Positions 11,042-21,231 of a stretch of DNA of 64,000 nucleotides are shown in pieces. This stretch comes from Ramlibacter henchirensis. Lineage in GTDB: Bacteria > Pseudomonadota > Gammaproteobacteria > Burkholderiales > Burkholderiaceae_C. The notes beneath the pieces were generated by a model that worked only from the letters and a program-made list of their open reading frames with translations, did no database searches and had not been told where the DNA came from. The translations under genes and the position numbers were made by a program. Within the stretch, counting starts at the first letter, position 1. Each line of letters starts with the position of its first letter. The stretch is taken from contig NZ_SMLM01000003.1 in assembly GCF_004682015.1 (NCBI RefSeq), positions 372,001 to 436,000 of the forward strand. The letters are read 5' to 3'.

Positions 11042-11671
11042 TCAGGCCTTGGCCGGGTGGTTCTGGCCGAGGGCGATCTTGAGCAGGTCGGCCACCGTGT
11101 TGGCGTTGAGCTTTTCCATGATGTTGGCGCGGTGCGCCTCCACCGTCTTGATGCTGATGCCCAGGTCGTCGGCGATCTGCTTGTTCAGGCGGCCGGCGAC
11201 GATGCGCTCGAGCACCTGCGCCTCGCGGCTCGTGAGCTTGGACAGCAGCGCGTCGCGGCTGGCGGCGCTCTGGTACTCGGCGAAGGCGCCCTTGGCGTGT
11301 TCGAGCATCCGTTCGACCAGGCCGACCAGCTCTTCTTCCTTGAAAGGCTTCTGGATGAAGTCCATCGCACCCTTCTTCATGGTGTTCACCGCCATCGGCA
11401 CGTCGCCGTGGCCGGTGATGAAGACGACGGGCAGGGGCGACTTGCGCTCGATCAGGCGGTCCTGCAGTTCCAGGCCCGTCATGCCGGCCATGCGGATGTC
11501 GACGATCAGGCAGGCCACCTCGCGCGGGTCGTAGCGGGAGAGGAAGGATTCGGCCGATTCGAAGCAGCGGACGCGGTAGTCCTTGCCTTCCAGCAGCCAC
11601 TGGAGCGAGTCGCGCACGGCCTCGTCGTCGTCGACGACATACACCGTGCCCTTTTTCGGAATCAGGCTCAT
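11042..11671 (-). CDS. FixJ/NarL-type response regulator
   Basis: 209 aa. The receiver (about 8-125) has the acidic pocket Asp14-16, phospho-acceptor Asp58 in LIVDIRM, Thr86 and Lys108 in IQKPF. The C-terminal LuxR-type HTH (about 142-200, TSREAQVLERIVAGRLNKQI) is of the FixJ/TodT class. Its ATG overlaps the kinase stop by 4 nt (ATGA), showing translational coupling to its cognate sensor. The pair is divergent from the pyruvate dehydrogenase operon, so control of that operon is a reasonable but untested idea. Confidence 0.93.
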   Translation of the reverse strand: MSLIPKKGTVYVVDDDEAVRDSLQWLLEGKDYRVRCFESAESFLSRYDPREVACLIVDIRMAGMTGLELQDRLIERKSPLPVVFITGHGDVPMAVNTMKKGAMDFIQKPFKEEELVGLVERMLEHAKGAFAEYQSAASRDALLSKLTSREAQVLERIVAGRLNKQIADDLGISIKTVEAHRANIMEKLNANTVADLLKIALGQNHPAKA

Positions 11672-14202
11672 GCAACTACTCCGGCGTCCTTGTTTGCTGC
11701 GGAACTGATAGCGCCGGAGACAGGAATCCAGAAGGAGAAGCGGCAGCCGGCGACTTCGCTGCCATTGTAGATGTTCTCCGCCTGCATCCTGCCCTGGTGC
11801 GATTCGACGATGCTTCGGCACAGGTTCAGGCCGATGCCCATGCCTTCGACCTTGGTGGAGAAGAAGGCCTCGTACAGGCGCTCCATCACCTCGGGCGCCA
11901 GGCCCGCGCCCGAGTCCTGCACCGAGAACTCCACCACGTGCTGGCCTTCGATCTGGCGCGGCACGGCGCGCAGTTCCACGCTGCGGTGCGCGGTGGGACG
12001 TCTCGCATGCTCGATGGACTCGGCGGCGTTCTTCAGCAGGTTGACCAGCACCTGCTCGATCAGGATCGGGTCCACCATCAGCTTGGGCAGGCGCGCGGCC
12101 ACGTAGTGCGACAGGCGCACGTTGCGGCGGCGCAGTTCGATCTCGGCCAGTTCCACCGCTTCGGCCACCATGGTCGCCACGTCCGAGAGCGAGCGATTCG
12201 GTTCGCTGCGGCGCACGAAGCTGCGGATGCGCTGGATGATCTGGCCGGCGCGCTGCGCCTGGCGGGCTGTCTTGTCCAGCGCCACCAGCAGGTCGTCCTG
12301 GTTGATCTGGTTGGAGCGGATGCGCGAGACCAGGCCGTTGCAGTAGTTGTTGATGGCCGTCAGCGGCTGGTTCAGCTCGTGTGCCACGCTGGAGGCCATC
12401 TCGCCCATGGTGATCAGCCGGCTGGCGGCCTGCGCGCGCTCGGCCTGCGCGGCGGCCTGTTCCTCGGCATGCCGGCGCGGCGTGATGTCGGTGGCGATCA
12501 CCATCTGCGCCAGGCGGCCGTCCACCCAGTTCAGGTAGCGCGAACGCACTTCCAGCCACTTGCCCAGTTCGGGCACGAAGATCTCCGCGTTCTCCGATTG
12601 GGCCGTGGTCAGCTGGCCGGTGGGCAGGCCGACGAAGGAGTCGACCTCGTCGAGCGATTCGTCGGTGCGCGGATGGTCCGGCACGCCGGCCTGCGCCACC
12701 ATCTGCAGGTGGCCGCCCGTGTGCAGCCCGAACCACAGGCGGTACAGCTTGTTGGCGAACAGCAGTTCCTCGCTGCCCAGCGGCGCGACGGACACGGATG
12801 CATCCAGCGCCTCCAGCACCGTCGTGAACCGCTCGTAGGAAGCGGAGAGCTGTTCGCGGATGCGGTTCGGCTCGGTGATGTCGGTCATCGACGTCATCCA
12901 GCCGGTCTGGTGGCCCTTGGGGTCGACCAGCGGCGAGACGTACATGCGTGCGTCGAACAGCGTGCCGTCCTTGCGCTTGACGCGCACCTGGAAGCCGCCG
13001 GGCGTGGTGCGGCCATTGAGTTCGTCCTCCAGCCGCGCCATCAGCTGGTCGCGGTCGGCTTCCGGCCAGTAGGGGAAGGGCGCCGTGCGGCCCACCAGCT
13101 CCGCCTCGCTCCAGCCGGTCATCTGGCAGAAGGCGGGGTTGACGTAGGTGATGCGGCCCTGCATGTCGAGCGCCCGCATGCCCGTGAGCATGGAGTTCTC
13201 CATCGCCCGGCGGAAGTTGGTCTCGGCGATCAGGGCCTGCTGCGCCTGCATGCGACGGCGCGTGTGGCGCCAGTTGCCGATCAGCATCCAGGCCGTCATC
13301 GCGCTCAGGGTTCCCACCAGCCAGAACAGGCCGCTGCCGACCACGCCCAGCGAAGTGCGGTAGGCCTGGGCCTTGAGCACCAGCCCGTTGCCCACGGGCG
13401 AGACCGGCACTTCGTATTCATTGGCCTGCGGCGCGGCCCACGCGAGCAGCCGGCTGGCGGTGCCGCGCCCGGGCAGCACCTGCCCGGCCAGCGCGCGGCC
13501 CTTCGCATCCAGCAGCGACACCGCGTAGCGGGCCGAGACCTCGGCGGGCACGCCGTACCGCAGCAGGCTGTCCACCGAGTACTCGGCGAGGATCACGCCG
13601 CCGAAGCGCGCGTGTTCGGCGAGCGGCACGTGCAGTTGCAGCAGCGGCGCGTTCTCGCCCGCGAGCGGCGGCTGCGAGTACACCGGCTGCTGCAGGTCGC
13701 GCACGAGCGAGAAGGTAGTCTCCGTTTCGCCGGGACGCAGCACGTCGCCCGCGCGGCGCTGCTGCTGCGCGGGCACGCTCGGGCCCGCATAGGCGGCCTG
13801 GATGCGCCGGCGGTCGTCGATCCAGGCCAGGGCCTGCAGCTCCGGGTACTGGATCACCATGGTCTCGGCGCGTCCGACGAATTCCTCCGGATCGATCTCC
13901 TTGTTGGAGATGTCGCGGGCGATCCGCATCAACTGCTCCTGGCGTTCGAGCAACCGCAGGCGCAGGCGCTGCTGCGCGTATTCCACGTCGCGCCGCACCG
14001 CTTCCTGCTCGCGGTCCATCTCCTCGAGGCGCAGGTACCAGAACGCGGAAATGATGGCCGCGAGGAACAGCAGCACCGCGGCCAGGGGCGCGAGCATCGC
14101 GTAGCGATCCTGCCGCCCCGGCGTCTGCCGCCGCCACCAGCGGCGCAGCCACGGGACCGGCGCCACGGCCTCGTGCAGCTCGGGAAGGGTGCTGTCTTGC
14201 AT
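11668..14202 (-). CDS. Membrane PAS sensor histidine kinase
   Basis: 844 aa from the ATG at 14202 (MQDSTLPEL). Two membrane segments (about 40-63 and 280-305) flank a periplasmic sensor region of about 220 residues. PAS domains follow; one has the clear pattern YVNPAFCQMTGWSEAELVG, and a second, more divergent one precedes the kinase core. The dimerisation domain has VAHELNQPLTAINNY with phospho-acceptor His608. The ATPase domain has N-box NLLKNAAESI, then DSGAGL and GMGIGLNLCRSI. This is the FixL/TodS-like class that pairs with FixJ-type regulators, and the regulator gene is coupled downstream. A start at 14310 would add 36 untypical residues and was not chosen. Confidence 0.92.
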   Translation of the reverse strand: MQDSTLPELHEAVAPVPWLRRWWRRQTPGRQDRYAMLAPLAAVLLFLAAIISAFWYLRLEEMDREQEAVRRDVEYAQQRLRLRLLERQEQLMRIARDISNKEIDPEEFVGRAETMVIQYPELQALAWIDDRRRIQAAYAGPSVPAQQQRRAGDVLRPGETETTFSLVRDLQQPVYSQPPLAGENAPLLQLHVPLAEHARFGGVILAEYSVDSLLRYGVPAEVSARYAVSLLDAKGRALAGQVLPGRGTASRLLAWAAPQANEYEVPVSPVGNGLVLKAQAYRTSLGVVGSGLFWLVGTLSAMTAWMLIGNWRHTRRRMQAQQALIAETNFRRAMENSMLTGMRALDMQGRITYVNPAFCQMTGWSEAELVGRTAPFPYWPEADRDQLMARLEDELNGRTTPGGFQVRVKRKDGTLFDARMYVSPLVDPKGHQTGWMTSMTDITEPNRIREQLSASYERFTTVLEALDASVSVAPLGSEELLFANKLYRLWFGLHTGGHLQMVAQAGVPDHPRTDESLDEVDSFVGLPTGQLTTAQSENAEIFVPELGKWLEVRSRYLNWVDGRLAQMVIATDITPRRHAEEQAAAQAERAQAASRLITMGEMASSVAHELNQPLTAINNYCNGLVSRIRSNQINQDDLLVALDKTARQAQRAGQIIQRIRSFVRRSEPNRSLSDVATMVAEAVELAEIELRRRNVRLSHYVAARLPKLMVDPILIEQVLVNLLKNAAESIEHARRPTAHRSVELRAVPRQIEGQHVVEFSVQDSGAGLAPEVMERLYEAFFSTKVEGMGIGLNLCRSIVESHQGRMQAENIYNGSEVAGCRFSFWIPVSGAISSAANKDAGVVA

Positions 14203-14240
14203 CAGCGTCAGAGTGTAGGTGAGCGTCAGAAGTGCTCTTA

Positions 14241-14256
14241 ATTCATTATGTGAAAT
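14241..14256. promoter_or_regulatory. AT-rich near-palindrome between the kinase gene and aceE
   Basis: ATTCA-TTATG-TGAAAT is an imperfect inverted repeat in the only AT-rich part of the 173-base divergent region. It lies 39 bases from the kinase start and 120 bases from the aceE start, so it could serve either gene as an operator. I do not recognise it as a known consensus. Confidence 0.25.
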
Positions 14257-14375
14257 TAGACGGCACGATTTGAAAAAGACCGGGTCCTGTGCGACACTCG
14301 CCGCGGCCACGCCGGCCTGCGAAGGTCAGCCGTATGGCGCGTACTAAATTAGCCCCCGAAAGAAGGAGACAAACC

Positions 14376-17087
14376 ATGTCAGCCCAGCCCGACAACATGT
14401 TCGGCGCGGCCGCGAACGACGCGGACGTGCAGGAGACCCGCGAATGGGTCGATGCCCTGTCCGCGGTCATCGCCGCCGAAGGCCGTGAACGGGGGCATTT
14501 CCTGCTCGAACAGTTGCTGGAGCAGGCTCGGCAGGAGGGCATCGACATGCCCTTCTCGGCCACCACCGGTTACGTGAACACCATCGAGCCGCAGGACGAG
14601 GAACGCTGCCCCGGCAACCTGGAGATGGAGGAGCGGCTGCGCGCCTACATGCGCTGGAACGCCATGGCGATGGTGGTCAAGGCCAACCGCCTGCATCCGG
14701 AAGACGGCGGCGACCTGGGCGGCCACATCAGCTCCTTCGCTTCGCTGGCCACCATGTTCGGCGCGGGCTTCAACCATTTCTGGCACGGCGAGAGCGACAA
14801 CCACGGCGGCGATTGCCTGTACATCCAGGGCCACAGCTCGCCGGGCATCTACGCCCGAGCGTTTCTCGAGGGCCGCATCAGCGAGGAGCAGCTGCTCAAC
14901 TTCCGCCAGGAGGTGGATGGAAAGGGCCTGTCGAGCTATCCGCACCCGAAGCTGATGCCGGAGTTCTGGCAGTTCCCCACGGTTTCGATGGGCCTCGGTC
15001 CGTTGATGGCGATCTACCAGGCGCGCTTCCTGAAGTACCTGCACGCCCGCGGCATCGCCAACACCGAGAACCGCAAGGTGTGGGTGTTCTGCGGCGACGG
15101 CGAGATGGACGAGGTGGAGTCGCTCGGCGCGATCGGCGTGGCGGCGCGCGAGAAGCTGGACAACCTGATTTTCATCGTCAACTGCAACCTGCAGCGGCTG
15201 GACGGCCCGGTGCGTGGCAACGGCAAGATCATCCAGGAGCTCGAAGGCGAGTTCCGCGGCGCCGGCTGGAACGTGATCAAGCTGATCTGGGGCAGCTACT
15301 GGGACCCGCTGCTGGCGCGCGACAAGGAAGGCATCCTGCGCCAGATCATGATGGACGTCGTCGACGGCGACTACCAGGCGATGAAGGCCAACGACGGCGC
15401 CTTCGTCCGCAAGAATTTCTTCGGACGCCACCCGAAGGCGCTGGAGATGGTGGCCAAGATGAGCGACGAGGACATCTGGCGCCTCAACCGCGGCGGCCAC
15501 GACCCGCAGAAGGTCTATGCGGCCTACCACAAGGCGGTCAACACCAAGGGCCAGCCGACGGTGCTCCTGATCAAGACGGTCAAGGGCTTCGGCATGGGCA
15601 AGGCGGGCGAGGGCAAGAACATCGCCCACCAGGCCAAGAAGCTGACGGACGAGGACATCCGCGCGTTCCGCGACCGCTTCAACATCCCCATCCCCGACGA
15701 GAAGCTGGCCGACATCCCGTTCTACAAGCCGGAGGAACACACGCCGGAGATGCAGTACCTGCACCAGCGGCGCAAGGCGCTGGGCGGCTACCTGCCCAAG
15801 CGCCGCGTGAAGGCCGACGAGCAGCTGAAGGTGCCCGCGCTGGACGCTTTCAAGGCGGTGCTGGAGCCGACGGCGGAAGGGCGCGAGATCAGCACTACGC
15901 AGGCCTACGTGCGCTTCCTGACCTCGCTGCTGCGCGACAAGGAACTGGGTCCGCGCGCGGTGCCGATCCTCGTCGACGAGGCGCGCACCTTCGGCATGGA
16001 GGGCCTGTTCCGCCAGATCGGCATCTACAACCCCGAAGGCCAGAAGTACACGCCGCAGGACCGCGACCAGGTGTCCTACTACAAGGAAGACCAGTCCGGG
16101 CAGATCCTGCAGGAGGGCATCAACGAGGCGGGCGGCATGGCCAGCTGGATCGCCGCGGCGACGTCGTACTCGACGAACAACCGCATCATGGTGCCGTTCT
16201 ACATCTACTACTCGATGTTCGGCCTGCAGCGCGTAGGCGACCTGTGCTGGGCGGCGGGTGACATGCAGGCGCGCGGGTTCCTGCTGGGCGGCACGTCCGG
16301 CCGCACGACCCTGAACGGCGAAGGCCTGCAGCACGAGGACGGCCACAGCCACATCCTGGCGCAGACCATCCCCAACTGCGTGAGCTACGACCCGACCTTC
16401 GCGCACGAGCTGGCGGTGATCATGCACGACGGCCTGCGGCGCATGGTGGAGAAGCAGGAGAACGTCTTCTACTACATCACCCTGCTCAACGAGAACTACC
16501 CGATGCCGGGCCTGGTGGCCGGCACCGAGCAGCAGATCATCAAGGGCATGTACCTGTTCAAGCCGGGCGCGAAGAAGGCCAAGGCGCCTTCGGTGAACCT
16601 GCTGGGGTCGGGCACGATCCTTCATGAATCCATCGCCGCGCAGGCGCTGCTGGAAAAGGACTGGGGCGTGTCTGCCAACGTGTGGAGCTGCCCGAGCTTC
16701 AACGAACTGGCTCGCGACGGCCAGGACTGCGAGCGCTGGAACCTGCTGCATCCGGGCGAGACGGCGCGCACGCCGTTCGTGTCGCAGCAGCTCGAGCCGC
16801 ACGCAGGTCCGGTGGTGGCGTCGACCGATTACATGAAGGCTTACGCCGAGCAGATCCGCCCCTTCGTGCCCAAGGGCCGCAGCTACAAGGTGCTGGGCAC
16901 GGACGGCTTCGGGCGCAGCGATTTCCGCAGCAAGCTGCGCGAGCACTTCGAGGTCAACCGCCACTACGTGGTGGTCGCGGCGCTGAAGGCGCTGAGTGAG
17001 GACGGCGCCGTGCCGGCCGCCAAGGTGGCCGAGGCGATCCGCAAGTACGGGATCAAGGCCGACAAGATCAATCCGCTCTACGCCTGA
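14376..17087 (+). CDS. aceE: Pyruvate dehydrogenase E1 component, homodimeric
   Basis: 903 aa. It is the thiamine-diphosphate enzyme that decarboxylates pyruvate and acetylates the lipoyl groups of AceF. The start MSAQPDNMFG follows AGAAGGAG at 14361-14368; an upstream in-frame ATG at 14289 lacks support. The ThDP motif begins GDGEMDEVESLGAI and continues to the NCNLQRLDGPVRGNGK segment. The C-terminal GTDGFGRSD is typical of homodimeric E1. It is first in the operon aceE-aceF-peptidase-lpdA. Confidence 0.97.
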   Translation: MSAQPDNMFGAAANDADVQETREWVDALSAVIAAEGRERGHFLLEQLLEQARQEGIDMPFSATTGYVNTIEPQDEERCPGNLEMEERLRAYMRWNAMAMVVKANRLHPEDGGDLGGHISSFASLATMFGAGFNHFWHGESDNHGGDCLYIQGHSSPGIYARAFLEGRISEEQLLNFRQEVDGKGLSSYPHPKLMPEFWQFPTVSMGLGPLMAIYQARFLKYLHARGIANTENRKVWVFCGDGEMDEVESLGAIGVAAREKLDNLIFIVNCNLQRLDGPVRGNGKIIQELEGEFRGAGWNVIKLIWGSYWDPLLARDKEGILRQIMMDVVDGDYQAMKANDGAFVRKNFFGRHPKALEMVAKMSDEDIWRLNRGGHDPQKVYAAYHKAVNTKGQPTVLLIKTVKGFGMGKAGEGKNIAHQAKKLTDEDIRAFRDRFNIPIPDEKLADIPFYKPEEHTPEMQYLHQRRKALGGYLPKRRVKADEQLKVPALDAFKAVLEPTAEGREISTTQAYVRFLTSLLRDKELGPRAVPILVDEARTFGMEGLFRQIGIYNPEGQKYTPQDRDQVSYYKEDQSGQILQEGINEAGGMASWIAAATSYSTNNRIMVPFYIYYSMFGLQRVGDLCWAAGDMQARGFLLGGTSGRTTLNGEGLQHEDGHSHILAQTIPNCVSYDPTFAHELAVIMHDGLRRMVEKQENVFYYITLLNENYPMPGLVAGTEQQIIKGMYLFKPGAKKAKAPSVNLLGSGTILHESIAAQALLEKDWGVSANVWSCPSFNELARDGQDCERWNLLHPGETARTPFVSQQLEPHAGPVVASTDYMKAYAEQIRPFVPKGRSYKVLGTDGFGRSDFRSKLREHFEVNRHYVVVAALKALSEDGAVPAAKVAEAIRKYGIKADKINPLYA

Positions 17088-17130: not shown

Positions 17131-18810
17131 ATGGCATCGGTCGAAGTGAAGGTCCCCGACATCGGGGACTTCAGTGAGGTTGCGGTCATCGAATTGCTGG
17201 TCAAGCCGGGAGACACGATCAAGCCCGAGCAGTCGCTCGTCACGGTCGAGAGCGACAAGGCGTCGATGGAGATTCCGTCGTCCACCGGCGGTGTCGTCAA
17301 GGAACTGAAGGTCAAGCTCGGGGACAAGGTGTCCGAGGGATCGGTGCTGCTGGTGGTGGAGGCGGAGGGCGCTGCGGCTGCGGCGCCTGCAGCCGCCGCT
17401 CCCGCGAAATCGGCGCCTGCCGCGCCGGCTGCTGCGAGTCCAGGCGCCGGAGCGCCCCCACCCCAACCCTCCCCGGCAGGGGGAGGGAGCGTCGAGGTCA
17501 AGGTGCCCGACATCGGCGACTTCAAGGACGTCGCCGTCATCGAAGTGCTGGTCAAGCCGGGCGACATGGTGAAGCAGGAGCAGTCGCTCATCACGGTGGA
17601 GTCGGACAAGGCCTCGATGGAGATTCCGTCTTCGGCGGCAGGGACCGTGAAGGAGCTGAAGGTCAAGCTGGGGGACAAGGTCAACATCGGCGATCTGATC
17701 GCGGTGCTCGAAGGCGCAGTGGGGGCAGGGAGTTCCTCACCCCAGCCCTCTCCCCCGAGTGGAGAGGGAGCGGCACCGGTTGTTCCTCCCTCTCCCGCAC
17801 CAGCGGGAGAGGGCCGGGGTGAGGGCGCCCGCGTCGCGCCCACCGCCGCCTTGCCGCCCCACGAACCCTCCGCGCCGTCCGGCAAGCTCCCGCACGCCTC
17901 GCCGACCGTGCGCAAGTTCGCGCGCGAACTCGGCGTGCCTCTCGAAGAGGTCAAGGGCACGGGTCCGAAGGGACGCATCCTGCAGGAGGACGTGCAGAAC
18001 TTCACCAAGGCGGTGATGAAGGGCGAGGCCAGCACTCGTGCGGCGGCGGGCAGGGCTCCCGCCGGCGGCGGCGAGGCGATGGGCGTGCTGCCCTGGCCCA
18101 AGGTGGACTTCGCGAAGTTCGGGCCGATCGAGCGCAAGGACCTCTCGCGCATCCGCAAGATCAGCGGCCCCAACCTGCACCGCAACTGGGTGATGATCCC
18201 GCACGTCACCAACCACGACGATGCCGACATCACCGACCTGGAAGCTTTCCGCGTCCAGCTCAACAAGGAAAACGAGAAGAGCGGCGTGAAGGTCACCATG
18301 CTGGCCTTCCTCATCAAGGCCTGCGTGGCGGCGCTGAAGAAATTCCCGGAGTTCAACAGCTCGCTGGACGGCGAGCAGATGGTGCTCAAGAACTACTGGA
18401 ACATCGGCTTCGCGGCCGACACGCCCAACGGCCTCGTGGTCCCGGTGATCAAGGATGCCGACAAGAAGGGCGTGCTGCAGATCAGCCAGGAGATGTCGGA
18501 TCTGGCGAAGAAGGCGCGCGACGGCAAGCTGGGGCCGGCCGACATGTCGGGCGCGACCTTCACGATCTCCTCGCTGGGCGGCATCGGCGGGCGTTACTTC
18601 ACGCCGATCATCAATGCGCCGGAAGTCGCTATCCTCGGGGTGTGCAGGAGCCAGACCGAACCGGTCTGGGACGGCAAGCAGTTCCAGCCGCGTCTGATGC
18701 TGCCGCTGTCCCTGTCGTGGGACCATCGCGTCATCGATGGCGCCGCGGCGGCCCGCTTCAATGCCTACCTGGGCGCCATCCTGGCGGACTTCCGCCGCGT
18801 GCTGCTCTGA
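17131..18810 (+). CDS. aceF: Dihydrolipoamide acetyltransferase E2 with two lipoyl domains
   Basis: 559 aa. It forms the core of the pyruvate dehydrogenase complex and transfers acetyl groups to CoA. There are two lipoyl domains (about 2-78 and 121-195) with lipoyl-lysines Lys43 and Lys160, each in [13 protein letters not shown] peripheral-subunit-binding domain follows (about 254-290, ASPTVRKFARELGVPLEEV), then the catalytic domain with SWDHRVIDGA (His532). Both interdomain linkers hold GC-rich palindromic repeats read in frame (residues about 109-120 and 202-232), giving PSPQPSP and [12 protein letters not shown] peptides rather than the usual Ala/Pro linker. It lies 43 bases after aceE. 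Confidence 0.97.
   Translation: MASVEVKVPDIGDFSEVAVIELLVKPGDTIKPEQSLVTVESDKASMEIPSSTGGVVKELKVKLGDKVSEGSVLLVVEAEGAAAAAPAAAAPAKSAPAAPAAASPGAGAPPPQPSPAGGGSVEVKVPDIGDFKDVAVIEVLVKPGDMVKQEQSLITVESDKASMEIPSSAAGTVKELKVKLGDKVNIGDLIAVLEGAVGAGSSSPQPSPPSGEGAAPVVPPSPAPAGEGRGEGARVAPTAALPPHEPSAPSGKLPHASPTVRKFARELGVPLEEVKGTGPKGRILQEDVQNFTKAVMKGEASTRAAAGRAPAGGGEAMGVLPWPKVDFAKFGPIERKDLSRIRKISGPNLHRNWVMIPHVTNHDDADITDLEAFRVQLNKENEKSGVKVTMLAFLIKACVAALKKFPEFNSSLDGEQMVLKNYWNIGFAADTPNGLVVPVIKDADKKGVLQISQEMSDLAKKARDGKLGPADMSGATFTISSLGGIGGRYFTPIINAPEVAILGVCRSQTEPVWDGKQFQPRLMLPLSLSWDHRVIDGAAAARFNAYLGAILADFRRVLL
17454..17490. repeat. Short GC-rich palindromic repeat inside the first AceF linker
   Basis: The pattern CCCCCACCCCAACCCTCCCC, four bases, then GGGGGAGGGAG matches the core of the longer repeats at 17735 and 19671. 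It encodes APPPQPSPAGGGS between AceF lipoyl domains 1 and 2. The arms can pair as a hairpin. Confidence 0.7.
17735..17825. repeat. Long GC-rich palindromic repeat inside the second AceF linker
   Basis: A two-part element. CCTCACCCCAGCCCTCTCCC pairs imperfectly with GGGAGAGGGCCGGGGTGAGG at its far end, and there are further internal hairpins (CCCTCTCCCGC / GCGGGAGAGGG). The open frame is kept through it, encoding SPQPSP and then [13 protein letters not shown]. The same peptide is found in the LpdA linker, so the elements were inserted, or retained, in the same frame. Confidence 0.82.
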
Positions 18811-18835
18811 AGAAGAAAAGAAAACCCGATCCCAC

Positions 18836-19426
18836 ATGACGACCGTCGTAGTAGTGAAGAAGGCCGGCCAGATCGCCATCGCAGCGGACACCCTGGTGAC
18901 ATTCGGCGACACCATGCTCTCCAAGCGCTACGAGGACAACGCCAAGATCTTCCGCGTCGAGACCGATGAAGGCCCCAGCTACGTCGGCATGGCCGGCACC
19001 GTGGCCCACTTCCCGGTGCTGCGCAAGGCGATGGGCTTGATGCCGCGCGAGATCCTCCACCTGAACAGCAAGGACGAGGTGTTCGACACCTTCACCAAGC
19101 TGCACCCGTACCTGAAGGACAACTTCTTCCTGCAGACCAAGGAAGAGGACAGTGATCCGTACGAGTCCAGCCAGTTCAGCGTGGTGATCGCCAACGCGAC
19201 CGGCATCTACGGCCTCTACAGCTACCGCGAGGTGTTCGAGTTCAAGGAGTTCTGGGGCATCGGCTCCGGTCGCAGCTTCGCGCTCGGCGCCATGCACTCG
19301 ATCTACAACAAGGCGAAGACGGCGCGCGAAGTGGCCGAAGCCGGCATCACCGCGGGGTGCGAGTTCGACCGCAATTCCGCGCTGCCGTTCGACCTGTTCA
19401 CGCTCAGGACGAAGGAAGCCAAATGA
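18836..19426 (+). CDS. Proteasome-like Ntn hydrolase, probable betaproteobacterial proteasome homologue (BPH)
   Basis: 196 aa. After Met removal the protein begins TTVVVV, giving an N-terminal catalytic Thr as in HslV and proteasome beta subunits. In full-length numbering Thr2, Asp18 (AADTL) and Lys37 (NAKIFR) match the canonical Thr1/Asp17/Lys33, with three extra residues before the Lys. The GMAGTVA loop (51-57) and the [12 protein letters not shown] segment (142-153) are HslV-like. It is not HslV itself: no hslU is nearby and the body of the sequence differs. BPH is a known but little-studied family, reported as I recall to form a double-ring particle. Here it sits between aceF and lpdA, 25 bases after aceF and overlapping lpdA by 4 nt, so it is cotranscribed and coupled with pyruvate dehydrogenase. 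Substrates and partner are unknown. Confidence 0.85.
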
Positions 19427-21231
19427 GCACCGTCGACGTCAAGGTTCCGGACATCGGCGACTTCAAGGATGTCGCGGTCATCGAGGTGCTGGTCAAGCCG
19501 GGCGACACGATCAAGGCGGAGCAGTCGCTCGTCACCGTCGAGAGCGACAAGGCTTCGATGGAGATCCCGTCGTCCCATGCGGGGGTGGTGAAGGAACTGA
19601 AGGTCAAGCTAGGGGACAAGGTGTCCGAAGGCTCCGTGTTGTTGGTGCTGGAGAGCAGTGCGGCGCAGAGCCCCTCACCCCAGCCCTCTCCCCAGGGGGG
19701 AGAGGGAGCAAAGGCGTCCTCTCCCTCTCCCGCCCCGGCGGGAGAGGGTCGGGGTGAGGGCAGACCCGCGCCCGTTGCCTCCACCTACGGCGGCGGCGCC
19801 GACCTCGAATGCGACATGCTGGTCCTCGGCGCCGGCCCGGGCGGTTACTCCGCGGCGTTCCGCGCCGCCGACCTGGGCATGAAGGTCGTGCTGGTGGAGC
19901 GCTACGCCACGCTCGGCGGCGTCTGCCTGAACGTCGGCTGCATTCCTTCGAAGGCGCTGCTGCACGTCGCGGCCGTCATGGACGAGGTCAGCCACTTCGA
20001 CACGCTCGGCATCAGCTACGGCAAACCGAAGATCGAGCTGGACAAGCTGCGCGCCCACAAGGGCAAGGTGGTGGGCAAGCTCACGGGCGGCCTGTCAGCG
20101 ATGGCCAAGATGCGCAAGGTGACGGTGGTCCGCGGGAGCGGCCGCTTCGTCGATCCGCACCACCTCGAGGTCGAGGAGACCAGCGGCGAAGGGCAGCAGG
20201 CCACCGGCAAGAAGCAGACGGTCAAGTTCCGCAACGCGATCATCGCGGCCGGCTCGCAGGCGGTGAGCCTTCCGTTCATGCCGAAGGACCCGCGTGTCGT
20301 CGACTCCACCGGCGCCCTGGAACTCGCGAGCATTCCCAAGCGCATGCTGATCCTGGGCGGCGGCATCATCGGCCTGGAGATGGGCACGGTCTATTCCACG
20401 CTGGGCTCGCGCCTCGACGTGGTCGAGATGCTCGACGGCCTGATGCAGGGCGCCGACCGCGACCTGGTGCGCGTGTGGCAGAAGATGAATGCGCCGCGCT
20501 TCGACAACATCATGTTGAAGACCAAGACCGTCGGCGCCGAAGCGACCAAGGGCGGCATCCTCGTCCGCTTCGAAGGCGAGCAGGCGCCCAAGGAGCCGCA
20601 GGTTTACGACCTCGTGCTGCAGGCAGTGGGCCGCAGCCCCAATGGCGCAAAAATCGGCGCCGACAAGGCCGGCGTCATCGTCGGCGAGCGGGGCTACATC
20701 CCGGTCGACATCCAGATGCGCACCAACGTGCCGCACATCTTCGCGATCGGCGACATCGTCGGCCAGCCGATGCTGGCGCACAAGGCGGTGCACGAGGCGC
20801 ACGTGGCCGCCGAAGCGGCGGCGGGCGAGAAGAGCACGTTCAACGCGCGTGTGATCCCCAGCGTCGCCTACACCGATCCCGAAGTGGCCTGGGTGGGGCT
20901 CACGGAGGAGCAGGCCAAGGCGCAGGGCCTCGCGATCAAGAAGGGCATGTTCCCCTGGACGGCTTCCGGCCGCGCCATCGCGAACACGCGCGACGAGGGC
21001 TTCACCAAGCTGCTCTTCGACGCGGAGACCCACCGCATCGTGGGCGGCGGCATCGTCGGCACCCATGCGGGCGACCTGATCAGCGAGGTGGCCTTGGCCA
21101 TCGAGATGGGCGCGGACGAGGTGGACGTCGGCAAGACCATCCATCCGCACCCCACGCTCGGCGAGAGCGTCGGCATGGCCGCCGAGATCGCCCACGGCAC
21201 CTGCACGGACGTGCCGCCGCAGCGGCGCTAA
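19423..21231 (+). CDS. lpdA: Dihydrolipoamide dehydrogenase E3 with N-terminal lipoyl domain
   Basis: 602 aa, against about 475 for a plain E3. Residues 2-78 are a lipoyl domain with Lys43. A linker (about 79-125) includes an in-frame palindromic repeat at residues about 83-113. The flavoprotein proper follows, with FAD motif [12 protein letters not shown], redox-active Cys168/Cys173 in CLNVGC, NAD motif [10 protein letters not shown], and the C-terminal HPHPTLGES with catalytic His576. It reoxidises dihydrolipoyl groups of AceF using NAD. Lipoyl-E3 fusions are known in betaproteobacterial and neisserial PDH. The ATG overlaps the peptidase stop (ATGA). Confidence 0.96.
19671..19760. repeat. 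Long GC-rich palindromic repeat inside the LpdA linker
   Basis: Same family as 17735-17825: CCCTCACCCCAGCCCTCTCC at the left pairs with GGAGAGGGTCGGGGTGAGGG at the right, with an inner hairpin CCCTCTCCCGCCCCGGCGGGAGAGGG interrupted by short loops. It encodes [12 protein letters not shown] and then [14 protein letters not shown], almost the same peptide as in AceF. Confidence 0.82.

Follow-up and report, generated by a model that had tools for sequence, protein, structure and literature searches.

A BPH gene inside the pyruvate dehydrogenase operon of Ramlibacter henchirensis: the position is conserved within one clade and does not by itself point to the substrate

We analysed a 64,000-nucleotide stretch of the Ramlibacter henchirensis genome (contig NZ_SMLM01000003.1, positions 372,001 to 436,000), called the window here. 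It carries a pyruvate dehydrogenase (PDH) operon in which a gene for BPH, a proteasome-like protein, lies between aceF and lpdA. The features of the operon are as follows.

14376..17087, + strand: aceE (pyruvate dehydrogenase E1), first gene of the operon
17131..18810, + strand: aceF (dihydrolipoamide acetyltransferase E2, two lipoyl domains)
18811..18835, + strand: aceF-BPH intergenic gap, 25 nt
18836..19426, + strand: BPH gene, 196 aa from ATG, intact
19423..19426, + strand: ATGA overlap of the BPH stop and the lpdA start, 4 nt
19423..21231, + strand: lpdA (dihydrolipoamide dehydrogenase E3, N-terminal lipoyl domain), last gene of the operon

The names of the three PDH genes and the lipoyl domains of aceF and lpdA were read from the sequence, and the start codons of aceE and aceF are predicted. 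The names of two features on the reverse strand, divergent from aceE, were assigned in the same way: a large ORF at 11668-14310 resembles a PAS sensor kinase, and a stretch within 11042-12736 resembles a response regulator. A promoter and terminator scan of the PDH operon gave results at chance level.

The original prediction described a 196-aa proteasome-like ORF at 18836..19426, located 25 bases after aceF and overlapping lpdA by 4 nt. The ORF, its translation and its Pfam and PDB matches agree with this description. The aceF stop lies at 18810, and the lpdA ATG at 19423 falls within the BPH stop. The N-terminal Thr, Asp18, Lys37 and HslV-like GSG of that prediction are all present in the translation. 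Thr follows immediately after Met1, no propeptide was seen, and GSG occupies residues 143-145. Asp18 and Lys37 are numbered with Met counted; in the mature chain the three residues are Thr1, Asp17 and Lys36. Removal of Met would expose Thr1.

To Pfam, the only match of the window protein above its cut-off was PF00227 (Proteasome), with an E value of 1.6e-7. When searched against the PDB, it matched 5OVU best (E 5.3e-63), followed by 5OVS (7.1e-31) and then HslV (3.9e-5). A profile search likewise ranked the solved BPHs above HslV. 5OVU is the BPH of Cupriavidus metallidurans (Cm-BPH, locus Rmet_1198), and 5OVS and 5OVT are that of Thiobacillus denitrificans (Td-BPH) (PMC5777263). The Pfam and PDB scores, together with 34 of 196 residues invariant across 110 PDH-type rows, show that the identity is not due to chance. 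The window protein also has the long acidic pore loop; over the aligned PDH-type rows this stretch holds a mean of 5.1 D/E and 1 K/R. In a 77-row tree, Cm-BPH fell inside the PDH-type (aceF-BPH-lpdA) group, with 91% identity to locus L043, and Td-BPH fell inside the argG-type group, with 89% identity to L228. Both positions match the operon contexts given in PMC5777263. The predicted membership of the BPH family is confirmed by the PDB ranking, the triad, the pore loop and the tree, and the window gene is a real, intact BPH gene, orthologous to that of C. metallidurans.

All five NCBIfam matches of the window protein were far under their cut-offs. Curated HslV models gave 31.5 of the required 157.75 bits and 31.8 of 137, and curated 20S beta-subunit models gave 24.7 of 224 and 22.3 of 191.9. 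HslV identity is ruled out by the scores and the tree, and identity as a 20S proteasome beta subunit is rejected because the curated score was not reached. The flanking genes are aceF and lpdA rather than hslU, and a separate hslV-hslU pair is present on another contig of the window's own genome. The HslU-interface residues of HslV are reported not to be conserved in BPH (PMC5777263). In public records, the BPH proteins P0024, P0058, P0095, P0114 and P0177 are called "MFS transporter" and others "HslV"; neither name fits the sequence.

The nearest named loci belong to Ramlibacter and Caenimonas, with Ramlibacter sp. Leaf400 at the top (95%), among the best 80 of 170 stretches in a search that may omit the window's own record. 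An AlphaFold monomer model built from a 58-row alignment had a mean pLDDT of 83.7, with pore-loop residues 101-105 and 108-110 below 50. An earlier model from a shallow alignment (pLDDT 59.8) was set aside.

Conservation of the Thr/Asp/Lys triad among orthologues had been put forward as a test of the original prediction. We aligned 277 rows, which represent 276 distinct proteins (109 PDH-type) because the window's own sequence was counted twice. Loci L098 and L256, with broken or unresolved frames, were left out. The triad is kept: every one of the 277 rows has Thr or Ser as its nucleophile, and Asp18, Lys37 and Gly54 are each present in 277 of 277. In the PDH-type rows the nucleophile is always Thr (110/110). 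It is Ser in all 29 RibD/RibE-type rows and in both NrdR-only rows. Fuchs et al. ascribe Ser-1 to all BPHs outside Betaproteobacteria (PMC5777263).

Several individual sequences deserve mention. In Ramlibacter terrae H242 (L098, a complete genome) the BPH match is split over two frames, and in genome G003 (L256) it is in two pieces with an unresolved start; each may be a frameshift or a sequencing error. Ser-1 BPHs also occur within the window's GTDB order (L212, L230 and L237). Those of G185 (L230) and G152 (L237) are second copies, and a Thr-1 argG-type BPH (L246 and L245, respectively) is also present in these genomes. Outside the order, L287, L290, L291, L294 and L295 encode divergent Thr-1 BPH-like proteins (23-37% identity), which may belong to other proteasome-like families.

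To survey the BPH neighbourhoods, we searched 320 loci for 15 marker proteins near BPH and then gave context labels. Ten representative neighbourhoods were checked with Pfam. The marker names YajQ, NrdR, HslR and ArgD are our readings of the sequences, and two further markers are presumably GluQRS and Orn. Over the 320 loci, which are redundant, the labels were PDH (152), the composite Hsp33/HslR/CinA/GluQRS or Hsp33-type (74), ArgG/YajQ/ArgF or ARG (46), RibD/RibE or RIB (29), NrdR only (2) and other (17). Counted as distinct full-length BPHs, the same labels covered 109, 74, 45, 29, 2 and 17.

Of 398 genomes from the window's own family, 95 have BPH, and these cover 35 of 115 genera; the other 303 gave no match. 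Neighbourhoods were examined in 91 of the 95 BPH genomes. The order aceF-BPH-lpdA was seen in 90 of the 91, and a contig end truncates the remaining neighbourhood. Among the named GTDB loci (the best 80 of 170 stretches encoding a relative), 78 had both flanks; L088 and L093 are cut by contig ends. Over the 109 distinct PDH-type loci, the aceF-BPH gap had a median of 18 nt (range -4 to 228). BPH overlapped lpdA by 4 nt in 70 of these loci and was separated from it by 0 to 47 nt in 31; in the other 8, the script located no lpdA start.

A wider sample gave other contexts. In the order, BPH was found in 143 of 399 genomes at 145 places: 74 Hsp33-type, 45 argG-yajQ (ARG), 16 PDH and 10 elsewhere, so that 129 of the 145 are not PDH-type. 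In the class, 45 of 370 genomes matched BPH. Besides the window's own neighbourhood and five weaker matches that were left out, 39 class neighbourhoods lie outside the order: 29 RIB, 7 other, 2 NrdR only, 1 ARG and no PDH. When a Ser-1 BPH served as query across the phylum, 38 of 299 genomes matched; the 29 outside the class were weak (E 3.6e-6 or worse) and were left unclassified. Random placement in other genomes, the second test proposed with the original prediction, is ruled out within the PDH-type clade by the family and named-locus counts. In other clades BPH does sit in unrelated operons.

The 29 RIB neighbourhoods of the class (L257, L258, L260, L265 and L275 among them) form a fourth home, nrdR-ribD-BPH-ribE, in a riboflavin operon. 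A riboflavin or ribD context is absent from the main text, figures and supplements aside, of PMC5777263, PMC8665760 and PMC5666114. With respect to those main texts, the ribD-BPH-ribE home is the newest by-product of the survey, and its Ser-1 BPHs offer a second system for substrate hunting.

To follow the history of these contexts, trees were compared with the labels. On a FastTree tree with 207 rows, 3 changes, the minimum, account for the four main contexts (187 rows), and an IQ-TREE tree of 75 labelled rows also gave the minimum of 3. When the 17 "other" and 2 NrdR-only rows were included as states, 10 changes were required compared with 5 at the least. The branch that sets the PDH-type rows apart has modest support, at 89 (FastTree) and 55 (IQ-TREE). 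These results suggest that the aceF-BPH-lpdA position goes back to an ancestor within the order. Two f21 genomes (L149 and L189) may represent a separate insertion.

Over 97 PDH-type loci, BPH distances correlated with LpdA distances at r=0.82 and with AceF distances at r=0.67, and AceF with LpdA at r=0.73. For neither BPH correlation did any of 999 permutations reach as high a value. Median dN/dS was 0.10 for BPH, 0.16 for the AceF segment and 0.15 for the LpdA segment (838 pairs, picked by BPH distance <0.15; a simple count estimate). By these measures BPH looks functional and mainly vertically inherited. Repeated recent horizontal insertion is disfavoured as the main history because BPH distances track those of LpdA.

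We compared these loci with 25 BPH-less family genomes. Lipoyl-LpdA was kept in 24 of them (74-80% identity), and G036 had only a 38% LpdA paralogue. In 22 of the 24, aceF and lpdA are spaced by -4 to 28 nt; in the other two the spacing is 807 and 1101 nt. BPH is under purifying selection and co-inherited with its neighbours, yet dispensable. These two longer BPH-less junctions hold other same-strand genes, a DUF4253 gene (L334:3396-4091) and a 294-aa ORF (L350:3471-4355) with no Pfam or NCBIfam match, which indicates that the aceF-lpdA junction accepts unrelated genes too. A BPH remnant in L334 was considered and rejected, since the weak match (E 0.025) lies outside the junction. Such BPH-less junctions in close relatives provide natural comparison strains.

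The link between BPH and PDH had been described before. Fuchs et al. (2017), who credit the initial description of BPH to Valas and Bourne (2008), placed it within the PDH-complex operon of C. metallidurans and named argG, PDH complex and Hsp33 as the three operon types that prevail (PMC5777263). They suggested that BPH turns over oxidised proteins. In their report, pull-downs recovered neither PDH subunits nor HslU, carbonylation patterns were unchanged, and the two BPHs were inert on the peptides and casein tried, with Thr1 reacting with epoxomicin (PMC5777263). The same text gives no unfoldase candidate, and no BPH function is established in a 2021 survey (PMC8665760). No later paper on BPH function was found among the matches listed. 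The original prediction stood on the BPH identity, the catalytic residues, the spacing to lpdA and the missing unfoldase partner, and fell on the novelty of the link, which was published in 2017 for C. metallidurans. The place of BPH in the PDH operon is already known, and the first direct tests of a PDH link reported in PMC5777263 were negative.

We consider it probable that BPH is a general protease riding on a housekeeping operon and is not PDH-specific. As a self-compartmentalising N-terminal-threonine peptidase, it would use Thr1, after Met removal, as the nucleophile together with Asp17 and Lys36. To judge from the solved orthologue, its subunits would form a double heptameric ring, with the acidic loop at the pore. 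BPH would have taken up its place in the aceF-lpdA junction in an ancestral member of the order, with mainly vertical inheritance afterwards. It is presumably co-transcribed with the PDH operon, and its translation may be coupled to that of lpdA; this arrangement would keep its expression steady. Most likely it acts, with no need of an ATPase, on a general range of unfolded, damaged or short polypeptides and is not dedicated to PDH subunits. The published pull-downs and carbonylation results (PMC5777263) count for a general protease over a PDH link. The 22 of 24 close-spaced BPH-less junctions, the 3-change trees, the r of 0.82 and the dN/dS of 0.10 also count for it. On the other side, the fixed position over many genera and the 70 of 109 overlaps could reflect selection for E3-matched expression. 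Since the BPHs were inert in the peptidase and casein assays of PMC5777263, "general protease" is unproven.

It is unlikely that BPH instead belongs to a redox or oxidative-stress protein quality system, with operon homes that supply expression following oxidative metabolism, as Fuchs et al. proposed (PMC5777263). In its favour stand their argument and homes that include Hsp33, PDH with its flavoprotein E3, and riboflavin synthesis. The argG-yajQ and CinA/GluQRS homes are harder to reconcile with it, although Fuchs et al. argue that arginine synthesis is linked to stress, and their own carbonylation tests were negative (PMC5777263).

Quite improbable, in our view, is a PDH-dedicated quality control in which BPH clears E2/E3 or lipoyl domains that are damaged or in surplus, and is co-expressed for that reason. 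The constant position in the clade and the frequent 4-nt overlap agree with it. So do four of five BPH-less same-genus genomes (G016, G021, G026 and G036; completeness 69, 95, 90 and 99%), whose best aceF matches are only 34-42% identical, with no orthologous aceF detected. However, a single deletion removing neighbours explains these four equally well, and the fifth, G023, has aceF followed 36 nt on by a lipoyl-domain match. Most family genomes lack BPH, yet those examined nearly all keep lipoyl-LpdA; most places in the order are not PDH-type; and the published pull-downs were without PDH subunits. A place in the PDH operon is not enough to show an action of BPH on pyruvate dehydrogenase.

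A quality-control protease tied to flavin or redox enzymes is very improbable, even though two of the four homes are flavin-related (between ribD and ribE, and immediately ahead of the flavoprotein E3), a third adjoins the redox chaperone Hsp33, and Ser replaces Thr throughout the riboflavin home; if true, ribD-BPH-ribE would point independently, for a second time, to the class of substrate.

The survey reverses the operon argument. BPH neighbours vary from clade to clade but hold steady inside each one, which makes them weak guides to the substrate.

BPH structures have been solved, yet the same paper reports no activity, partner or substrate (PMC5777263). Compared with these known systems, the window BPH is closest to Cm-BPH, with which it shares the PDH-operon home in another genus. 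Its pore loop reads EEDSD where Cm-BPH has EDEDD, and its Lys36 (mature) is the equivalent of Cm-BPH Lys37. Td-BPH has the same Thr1/Asp/Lys and long pore loop; unlike the window BPH, it is encoded in an argG operon and lies on another branch of the BPH tree. HslV (ClpQ), the partner of HslU, is likewise a proteasome-like Ntn hydrolase, with a TT start and a weak sequence match to the window BPH.
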